A stretch of 36,199 nt of DNA, from contig CAJXAC010000021.1 of NCBI GenBank assembly GCA_913050035.1, positions 1 to 36,199 of the forward strand, written 5' to 3'. Shown piece by piece: positions 30,137-32,934 of this stretch. The notes beneath the pieces are model-generated. The model was given only the letters and a program-made list of their open reading frames with translations, was not told the DNA's origin and made no database searches. The position numbers and the translations under genes were made by a program. Source of the stretch: an uncultured Gammaproteobacteria bacterium (GTDB lineage Bacteria; Pseudomonadota; Gammaproteobacteria; Pseudomonadales; Azotimanducaceae). The first letter of the stretch is position 1, and each line of letters starts with the position of its first letter.

Positions 30137-30985
30137 ATGCCAGTAATGTCTCGTAAATTTGCTGTCTTGGGTAACCCGGTAGAGCACTCACTTTCGCCAG
30201 TTATTCACCAACAATTCGCCCGGCAGTTTGGCCATAACATCGACTATTCAAGACAACGTCTCGAACCCGCGTCATTTGCTCAATATGTTCGAGATTTTTT
30301 TGCATCCGGCGGCTGTGGCCTGAATGTAACGGTACCGTTCAAGTTGTTAGCGCATGAATGTGCAGATTCGCTGCACGCCACTGCACAGCAAGCAGGCGCA
30401 GCGAATACACTTACCCTGAGAGAAAACGTAATAACGGCTTGGAACACCGATGGCGCAGGTTTGGTTAACGACCTGACAGGGCGCTGCGATCTCACTCTGG
30501 CGGCGAAGAAAATTTTGATCCTTGGTGCAGGTGGCGCCGCCCAGGGGATTATCGGACCGATATTGGACTGCGGACCTATGTCTTTAACGCTAGCAAATAG
30601 GACCCAGGCAAAGGCGGAGCGACTGCTCCGCCGCACAGCACCGCGTTATCCGGAGGTCGACTTATCCGCCTACTCATTGCAGGGTCTCGCAAGTGGTGAT
30701 TCATCTTTTGACCTAATTATCAACTCTACTTCACTCGGGTTAGATGGTGGGGAAGTCAGTGTGTCGGCCGATATCGCGACGGGCGCCTTTTGTTATGACC
30801 TGAGCTATGGCGAATCCGCGGCATTCGCGCAATGGGCAAGGCGCGTTAGCGCGAGCGGCGTTGCAGACGGCTTGGGCATGTTGGTTGAGCAAGCGGCATT
30901 GAGCTATGAAATCTGGTTTGGTGAGAAACCGGAGACAGCAATAGTGCATAAACAACTAGCGGAGCAACTTGATTTAAGTGACTGA
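30137..30985 (+). CDS. aroE: Shikimate dehydrogenase (NADP-dependent)
   Basis: AroE reduces 3-dehydroshikimate to shikimate in chorismate synthesis, 282 residues. The catalytic lysine is Lys69 in NVTVPFK and its partner Asp105 in NTDG. The NADP-binding GAGGAAQG is at 130-137 with NRTQAKAE following. The ATG at 30137 has AGAGGG just upstream; a second ATG three codons on lacks one. It is 18 bp after tsaC, and its end overlaps the next gene by 8 bp. Confidence 0.97.
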   Translation: MPVMSRKFAVLGNPVEHSLSPVIHQQFARQFGHNIDYSRQRLEPASFAQYVRDFFASGGCGLNVTVPFKLLAHECADSLHATAQQAGAANTLTLRENVITAWNTDGAGLVNDLTGRCDLTLAAKKILILGAGGAAQGIIGPILDCGPMSLTLANRTQAKAERLLRRTAPRYPEVDLSAYSLQGLASGDSSFDLIINSTSLGLDGGEVSVSADIATGAFCYDLSYGESAAFAQWARRVSASGVADGLGMLVEQAALSYEIWFGEKPETAIVHKQLAEQLDLSD

Positions 30986-31256
30986 ATCACACAATTTAAA
31001 ACGCCGTTTCATCGCTGGAGCGGTATGTCCTCAATGTAGAGCGTTAGACAGGTTGGTGTTGGAATCTTCGGTGGATGGATCGCAACAGCGCCGGCGCTGT
31101 GTCGCCTGTGGTTTTAGCGAATCCATGGATGCGCCAAACGCGTCTGCGATGCCCCGTGCGCGGTTTGAGCGCTCGCGGGCGGCGCCAGGTGAACATCAGC
31201 CTGTGAAAATTCTAGATCCGAGTTGGACCCAACGCGCGGGCAAAAACGATGACTGA
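30978..31256 (+). CDS. YheV-family putative zinc-ribbon protein
   Basis: This 92-residue protein starts at a GTG inside the end of aroE. RRFIAGAVCPQC followed by RCVACGF gives four cysteines (17, 20, 41, 44) arranged as a zinc ribbon, and the RFIAGA lead matches the YheV family (DUF2387), which has no established function. The C-terminal part is polar and arginine-rich. The 8-bp overlap with aroE shows co-translation. A role in metal or nucleic acid binding is plausible but not shown. Confidence 0.8.
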   Translation: MTESHNLKRRFIAGAVCPQCRALDRLVLESSVDGSQQRRRCVACGFSESMDAPNASAMPRARFERSRAAPGEHQPVKILDPSWTQRAGKNDD

Positions 31257-31779
31257 GCGCCTCCCGATTTCGCAAATCGTCTAAAGATTGGCAAGCTTTT
31301 TTCGCGGCGTTCGCTGCTTGTTAAGCGTATGTTTGTATTGCTGAATATTTTTTCATCGCTATACTTTGCGCGCTGATGGAATAGTTGCGCAAACAAAGCT
31401 CTGCAAAGAACGATTTTAAGATAAAAATCGTCTCGTTAAAGACGGAATCGCGCCACAGACATTGGTTTCATTCGAGCCAATATCAAGGTTCTTAGGCAAC
31501 AGTATCAGCAAAAAGACGTCCTTCTGCGAGCAGAATGGAAACGTCTAAAAAGCCAGCTTGGATAAGAGAGGGAGAGCGAGGCGAATGCCTTGGGCGTCAA
31601 AAGCTGGATAGTGGTTTTGCGAGAGGGCAGACCCGCCAAAAGAGATATAGCGCGTTGCCGTGAATGGTAACTAGGCGGAGCTATAAAAACGCTGTTATCA
31701 AAGCTTTGCGTGAAACAAAAAAGGGCGCGGTATTGGCTAGCCTGCGTAAGCTGATAAGTAGAATCCACTAGCAAGAAAC
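31257..31779 (+). other. Non-coding region upstream of cox operon with structured leader
   Basis: No recognised gene lies in these 523 bp. A good promoter at 31338-31365 implies a leader of about 400 nt. Downstream are closely spaced complementary arms: 31410-31431, 31461-31481, 31514-31546 (nested), 31553-31607 (enclosing a GAAT-loop hairpin at 31577-31592), 31615-31641 and 31654-31671. Two small open frames, 31535-31663 and 31664-31771, abut as TGA-ATG and encode basic peptides of 42 and 35 residues, without good ribosome-binding sites. It may be a structured RNA, a regulatory leader or a decayed gene. Confidence 0.6.
31338..31365 (+). promoter_or_regulatory. Sigma-70 promoter upstream of cox operon
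   Basis: TTGCTG (31338-31343) and TATACT (31360-31365) are separated by 16 bp, predicting a start near 31372. This is about 400 nt from coxB, so it may drive a separate small RNA or a long cox leader. Confidence 0.65.
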
Positions 31780-32934
31780 ATGATAGAGAGACACACCGGG
31801 ATGAAGAAAATAATTTTGCAGGTTGTCGGCACAGTGATCCTGACCGTTAGTGCTTTATGGGTTCAGGCCGATGAGCTTAACTTGCGGGCTGGTGTTACCG
31901 AGATAAGCAAGGAGGTCTACAGCCTTCATATGTTGATCTTGTGGATCTGCGTGGCGATTGGCGTAGTAGTTTTTGGTGTTTTGTTTTACTCGGTCTACGC
32001 ACACAGAAAGTCAAAAGGCGTCGAAGCGGCTCAATTTCATCACAGCACCAAGCTCGAGCTTGCCTGGACGATCGTCCCTACTCTTATTCTCGTGGGGATG
32101 GCGTACCCCGCCACTGAGACGCTGATAAAGATGTATGACACCGGTGGTGAGGACATGACCGTTGAGGTTCGTGGCTATCAGTGGAAGTGGCAGTACAAGT
32201 ATTTGGATGAAGACTACAACCGCACGTTCTCCTTCTTTTCGAATCTGGCAACGCCCCGATCGCAGATTAATAATCGGCAGGTTAAAACCGACACTTATCT
32301 ACTCGAGGTTGATGAACCGCTGCGAATCCCGACTAATCGCAAGGTGCGGTTCTTGATTACTGCTGAAGACGTTATTCACGCGTGGTGGGTCCCGGATTTC
32401 GGCATTAAGCGCGATGCTGTGCCAGGGGTCGTAAATGATCTTTGGGCGATCGTTCCGGAACCGGGTATTTATCGTGGGCAGTGCACAGAGCTGTGCGGCA
32501 AGGATCATGGTTTTATGCCAATCGTAGTAGAAGCGTTACCAGAGGCGGAGTTTGACGCCTGGTACGCAAGTCGTGTGTCCACCGAGGTTGTCCGTACTGA
32601 AAGCTTCGACGATACATTTTCTCACGAGCAGTTGATGGCAAAGGGCGAGGAAGTTTATGGAACATATTGTTCTGCTTGCCATTTAGCCAACGGTCAGGGG
32701 ATTCCGCCGGCGTTTCCGGCAATTGCGGGCTCCGCTGTCGCCATGGGCCCTAAAGACGATCATTTGCGGTTGGTTATTGAAGGAGTGGCCGGGACCGGCA
32801 TGCAGGCCTTCGGTAAACAGCTTGATCCTGTGGAGTTGGCTTCGGTTGTGCACTTCCAGCGTCATTCCTTTGGCAACGACGCAGGCGATCTGTCTCAGCC
32901 TGCCGACGTCATTAATTTATCCGGCGGACAATAG
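31780..32934 (+). CDS. coxB: Cytochrome c oxidase subunit II with fused cytochrome c domain (caa3 type)
   Basis: This subunit accepts electrons from cytochrome c and passes them through CuA to heme a, 384 residues. A signal peptide (MKKIILQVVGTVILTVSALWVQA) precedes two membrane helices. CuA ligands are His200, Cys235, Glu237, Cys239, His243 and Met246. A C-terminal cytochrome c domain has the heme site CSACH at 297-301, which marks the caa3 type. The start could be the ATG at 31780 or, seven codons on, the ATG at 31801, which begins directly at the signal peptide; neither has a strong ribosome-binding site. Confidence 0.95.
   Translation: MIERHTGMKKIILQVVGTVILTVSALWVQADELNLRAGVTEISKEVYSLHMLILWICVAIGVVVFGVLFYSVYAHRKSKGVEAAQFHHSTKLELAWTIVPTLILVGMAYPATETLIKMYDTGGEDMTVEVRGYQWKWQYKYLDEDYNRTFSFFSNLATPRSQINNRQVKTDTYLLEVDEPLRIPTNRKVRFLITAEDVIHAWWVPDFGIKRDAVPGVVNDLWAIVPEPGIYRGQCTELCGKDHGFMPIVVEALPEAEFDAWYASRVSTEVVRTESFDDTFSHEQLMAKGEEVYGTYCSACHLANGQGIPPAFPAIAGSAVAMGPKDDHLRLVIEGVAGTGMQAFGKQLDPVELASVVHFQRHSFGNDAGDLSQPADVINLSGGQ

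Follow-up and report, generated by a model that had tools for sequence, protein, structure and literature searches.

The DNA between yheV and the coxB operon of an uncultured marine gammaproteobacterium is rich in inverted repeats, which raises the question of whether the leader of a respiratory oxidase mRNA folds into a regulatory RNA. The window, that is, the whole stretch of 36,199 nt that was analyzed, comes from a genome (G000) of 2.6 Mb that is 92% complete, and the named relatives closest to it are MAGs and single-cell genomes of marine gammaproteobacteria, including the K189A clade and HTCC2089-like bins. The region is flanked by yheV (DUF2387, 30978–31256) and by the operon coxB-coxA-ctaG/cox11-coxC. 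The coxB gene (31801–32934, + strand; Pfam COX2, COX2_TM, and Cytochrome_CBB3) encodes oxidase subunit II with a C-terminal cytochrome c domain, which identifies a caa3-type oxidase. The longest coxB ORF begins with an ATG at 31780, which is absent in the relatives. Because the relatives lack this codon and keep the ATG at 31801 together with its context, which forms a conserved block at 31780–31803 (+ strand) in the alignment of six species, the coxB start codon is most likely 31801 (MKKIILQ). With this start, the yheV-coxB gap measures 544 bp rather than the 523 bp given in an earlier note on this DNA, and the distance from the end of the last stem to the start codon becomes ~130 bp instead of about 110 bp.

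The earlier note described a dense series of six stem-loops at 31410–31671. All six inverted repeats were indeed present near where they had been placed. To assess their density, perfect stems of at least 5 bp (loop 3–45) were counted and compared with 300 dinucleotide shuffles. The region contained 11 such stems against a mean of 7.1 in the shuffles, and 36 of the 300 shuffles reached that number, so raw stem density was near chance and was rejected as evidence. Folding of 31405–31690 gave z scores of −2.25 (+ strand) and −2.73 (− strand), and that of 31372–31790 gave −1.56. Since the count was weak, the fold scores were modest, and the minus strand folded equally well, the question became which of the stems selection preserves. 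A stem density near chance, a modest overall fold score, and equal folding of the minus strand are also what favors taking the repeats as DNA-level features, such as transcription-factor sites, or as chance rather than as RNA.

Comparison with aligned relatives separated the repeats. The pairing of the stem ACGATTTT/AAAATCGT (31410–31431) and that of GTTGCC/GGTAAC (31654–31671) were broken or weak, and ATTGG/CCAAT (~31463–31481) was partly kept in one relative, as judged by eye. Only three hairpins, designated A, B, and C, received comparative support, with hairpin B carrying most of the signal.

The promoter proposed in the earlier note was examined in the same way. It consists of TTGCTG (31338–31343), a 16-nt spacer, and TATACT (31360–31365) on the + strand, with a predicted start near 31372. 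This block was 67–87% identical between the window and four relatives, and many genomes of the genus, as well as Pseudomonas, carry the pattern TTGCYN-N16-TATAAT or TATACT ~140–540 nt before coxB. The conservation supports this promoter, which the earlier note called sigma-70-like; a consensus scan had missed it because its −35 element is weak. In Pseudomonas aeruginosa, 5′-RACE placed the coxB starts at −136 and −127 (PMC5436846), and the orthologous TATACT of strain PA7 ends 143 nt before the coxB ATG; therefore, the mapped −136 start lies 7 nt after TATACT. By analogy, we infer that the transcript of the window starts near 31372, in agreement with the earlier note, which would give a 5′ untranslated leader of ~429 nt for the cox operon mRNA (31372–31800, + strand), as measured from the promoter to the conserved ATG. 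The same measure predicted leaders of 428–499 nt in the six species. No + strand terminator was found in the leader, and no short ORF was common to the leaders. A second conserved block (31262–31296, around AAATCGTCTAAAGATTGGCAAGCTTTT) was observed upstream of the promoter in all six species, and it may represent an activator site or mark where the upstream transcript ends.

Hairpin B (31553–31607, + strand), which the earlier note had recorded as CCAGCTT/AAGCTGG with an inner stem, was kept in six species, namely, the window and G004/L067, G002/L004, G015/L066, G060/L068, and G021/L069. In the window, its outer stem P1 pairs 31553–31559 with 31601–31607, and its inner stem P2 pairs 31578–31582 with 31587–31591 around a loop at 31583–31586. 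Across the species, P1 comprises 7–11 bp and P2 5 bp, and between them lies an internal loop in which AAGAGAGGGAGAG faces GGKCGU. The purine strand of this loop (31564–31576, + strand) was identical in six of six species, and the opposite strand (GGGCGT in the window; 31592–31597, + strand) varied at a single G/T position. Both P1 and P2 had been predicted from the window alone, so that the relatives test them fairly; the innermost pairs of P1 were included later, once L068 had been inspected. In the model-based alignment, 8 of the 16 pairs were changed on both sides, a count reached by 2 of 500 shuffles, and the six sequences are related, which can inflate covariation counts. These double changes are the compensatory changes that the earlier note had named as support for an RNA. 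In the same alignment, 74% of the cells were paired compared with at most 50% in slid registers, and the former value is understated because in L068 and L069 the aligned P2 is shifted by one base. When each sequence was folded alone, a matching outer and inner stem was obtained with z scores of −1.6 to −3.8, the inner stem of L066 being somewhat different. Fourfold-degenerate coxB sites were only 27–41% identical between the window and the hairpin B relatives, and the 13-nt loop was nevertheless unchanged, indicating strong selection on the loop. The possibility that the purine loop pairs with a distant complementary sequence was rejected, as no conserved partner was found in the leader or in early coxB.

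Hairpins A and C, which flank hairpin B, are shared by the four closest species. Hairpin A (31514–31546, + strand) is formed by AGACG(T)/(A)CGTCT enclosing TTCTG-CGAG-CAGAA, as the earlier note had proposed, and its individual folds had z scores of −3.75 to −4.42. At the place of hairpin C, that note had drawn TTTTG/CAAAA enclosing GGG-CAGA-CCC; the relatives instead keep the pairing GTGGTTTTGC-[GAGAGG]-GCAGACCCGC (31611–31636, + strand), of which the stem is preserved and the loop invariant (z scores, −2.2 and −2.7). For the combined A+B+C structure in the four closest species, 93.5% of the cells were paired compared with at most 46% in slid registers, and four pairs were double-changed. Hairpins A and C are less firmly supported than hairpin B, because most pairs in these two hairpins are either constant or altered on a single side.

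These results bear directly on the reading of the repeats as protein-binding sites in DNA or as chance. Neither would be expected to produce the double changes of P1 and P2, whose enclosed loops are invariant and non-palindromic, and the element lies 140–211 nt downstream of the predicted transcription start. We therefore regard that reading as unlikely. As in structured cis-acting leaders, the structure is kept through compensatory changes, here in few and related sequences, and its position is fixed upstream of coxB and downstream of the coxB promoter. It is thus well supported by comparative sequence evidence that the leader element is a real, conserved, lineage-specific RNA structure, and it is probably a gene-control RNA and not a chance set of repeats. 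The earlier proposal of a new structured RNA in a promoter-driven leader held for the promoter and for the structure, and its count of six stem-loops did not.

The distribution of the element was determined with a covariance model (R1). One copy was found in each of six genomes, always upstream of coxB, at 65–75 bits. A search of 40 genomes of the genus and 206 of the family gave no other convincing match beyond these six coxB copies, and a 390-genome sample of the order added only chance-level matches. Weak R1 matches (E ~0.005) occurred in the numbers expected by chance; the one that was inspected, in L153, is a purine-rich stretch on the minus strand and was taken as chance. A viral contig with the loop pattern (L146), where the pattern lies inside a coding ORF, was likewise taken as chance, and phage and plasmid records contained no match to the element. 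As the element is missing from most of the genus, it is not a general need of coxB.

The earlier note had matched the region to no known riboswitch, and this was borne out by Rfam 15, in which no family reached its gathering score; even relaxed thresholds brought no match beyond snoRNA models, the best with 13–14 bits against a cut-off of 100. Published candidate-RNA surveys, which were term-searched in a partially covered literature, describe no coxB motif, and an earlier description is possible; the main text of PMC2864571 mentions neither cytochromes nor oxidases. The nearest in context is the HRC-8-4 motif, which is likewise a candidate cis-acting RNA adjoining cytochrome c oxidase genes. 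However, this motif belongs to Rhodobacterales and to the cbb3 operons ccoNOQP/ccoGHIS, unlike the caa3 coxB here, and the two are likened by description only (PMC8632094). The element appears to be a structured cis-acting leader outside every described family tested, with a putative function.

Several mechanisms by which a leader could control coxB were then considered. Intrinsic-terminator attenuation was unsupported because the leader has no + strand terminator, and a leader-peptide attenuator found neither a conserved short ORF nor a terminator. An 89-aa ORF on the minus strand (31505–31774) matched close relatives only, is broken by a stop in L067, and was rejected. Masking of the start region was unsupported as well, since in predicted ensembles this region was mostly unpaired, with no strong pairing of the coxB start region in most species. 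Given no + strand terminator, no conserved upstream ORF, and no strong start-region pairing in most species, control via a bound factor remains.

We propose that the caa3 oxidase mRNA is made from the conserved promoter ending at 31365 and carries a long 5′ untranslated leader. Within this leader, the lineage-specific element would form three consecutive hairpins, with hairpin B as the core, and would act on the cox mRNA in cis once transcription has been initiated. The hairpins would show the AAGAGAGGGAGAG/GGKCGU and GAGAGG loops to a trans factor, either a protein that binds RNA or a small RNA assisted by Hfq, and this putative factor would set the translation or stability of the operon mRNA, which we think is the most likely mechanism. 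A regulatory function of the leader element is plausible, and we judge the chances to be slightly better than even for the full reading, in which the mRNA of the caa3 oxidase contains a cis-acting RNA specific to this lineage whose purine-rich loops are displayed to a putative trans factor.

Three other readings involve the same loops. In the first, hairpin B belongs to a riboswitch whose internal loop, perhaps together with A and C, binds a respiration-linked ligand (heme, copper, or a redox cofactor) and thereby regulates coxB expression. Aptamers typically look as hairpin B does, with an extensive invariant internal loop flanked by covarying stems, and the position before a single operon is fixed. 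Nevertheless, a simple two-stem hairpin would be small for an aptamer, the distribution is very narrow (six species, with no other target genes), and no expression platform is apparent, with neither a + strand terminator nor an evident pairing switch at the start codon, making this reading improbable. In the second, processing of the leader transcribed from the coxB promoter yields a distinct trans-acting small RNA that hairpins A–C form or release, and its purine loops serve as seeds for pairing with other mRNAs. Invariant single-stranded purine loops suit base pairing, and Hfq is encoded in the window's genome, but the hairpins are not followed by a + strand terminator, and we consider this reading as doubtful as the riboswitch. 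In the third, repression is of the CsrA/RsmA type, with CsrA binding GGA motifs in loops; by eye, GGGAG in an exposed loop resembles a GGA core. This reading was largely refuted and is very improbable, as CsrA was found in 0 of 13 genomes (the window's and 12 genus members, including all six with the element); several of these are incomplete, but G002 and G004 are 98–99% complete.

The closest known coxB leader is that of P. aeruginosa (PA0105), which shares the gene, the operon type, and the far-upstream promoter layout, there with a mapped start (PMC5436846, PMC8913705). It differs in being 127–136 nt long, unrelated in sequence, and without hairpin B. Its promoter is RpoS-dependent (PMC5436846, PMC8913705), whereas RpoS was not detected in the window's genome. 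Among 10 genomes of the genus, no RpoS match exceeded the cut-off, and RpoS control as in Pseudomonas was rejected since the matches resembled RpoD (~620 aa) and RpoH (~300 aa) by length and score. The failure to find CsrA (13 genomes) and RpoS (10 of these) is unusual for the order, and some of the genomes are incomplete. In P. aeruginosa, the ribosome-binding site is limiting for coxB expression (PMC5436846), and the coxB RNA binds Hfq (PMC8913705), so that posttranscriptional control of coxB is likely in that species and, therefore, plausible for the operon generally, with the reservation that the leader sequence is different. The coxB upstream regions of Pseudomonas (L110–L129) also showed conserved blocks between promoter and ATG, approximately ACCTGATGGA and TTGGCGGTC...CCCTTGGCCG.

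A different coxB leader was observed in a sister group (L073, L075, L076, L077, and L087), in which a long stem encloses the hairpin UCGG-RANGAGAAGGGA-CCGA; these leaders also carry an invariant AGTGATCTCCCRATATCGCT-like block. Covariation was stronger here than for hairpin B: fifteen pairs of this structure were double-changed, and its covariation score was 0.50 compared with 0.20 in shuffles (0 of 500 as high), a score favored by the prediction of the structure from the same alignment on which it was tested. In the MAFFT alignment of these leaders, the outer stems were misaligned. The sister-group leader has the same promoter, the same gene, and a purine-rich hairpin loop (RANGAGAAGGGA) like that of hairpin B, but its stems and their order differ from those of the window's leader. 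Homology between hairpin B and the sister-group hairpin was unsupported, as R1 run with filters off gave nothing convincing. Within the order, coxB may often be preceded by a structured leader whose RNA turns over fast. A bolder combination, in which a new riboswitch class, with hairpin B as its sensor, matches the synthesis of the caa3 oxidase to a respiratory signal (heme, copper, or a redox cofactor) and the coxB leaders of Pseudomonadales are a recurrent hot spot of RNA sensors under one conserved promoter, is a long shot.

With this finding, a largely uncultured marine lineage gains an RNA element that is supported by covariation, has no counterpart in Rfam, and would take part in controlling a major respiratory enzyme. 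A broader pattern is suggested as well, in which a single conserved promoter stands 140–540 nt before coxB and is separated from the gene by structured RNAs that are specific to each lineage. For P. aeruginosa, cox repression in rich medium has been described as unexplained, and control at the mRNA level is suspected (PMC8913705); conserved long coxB leaders make this question testable in laboratory species.
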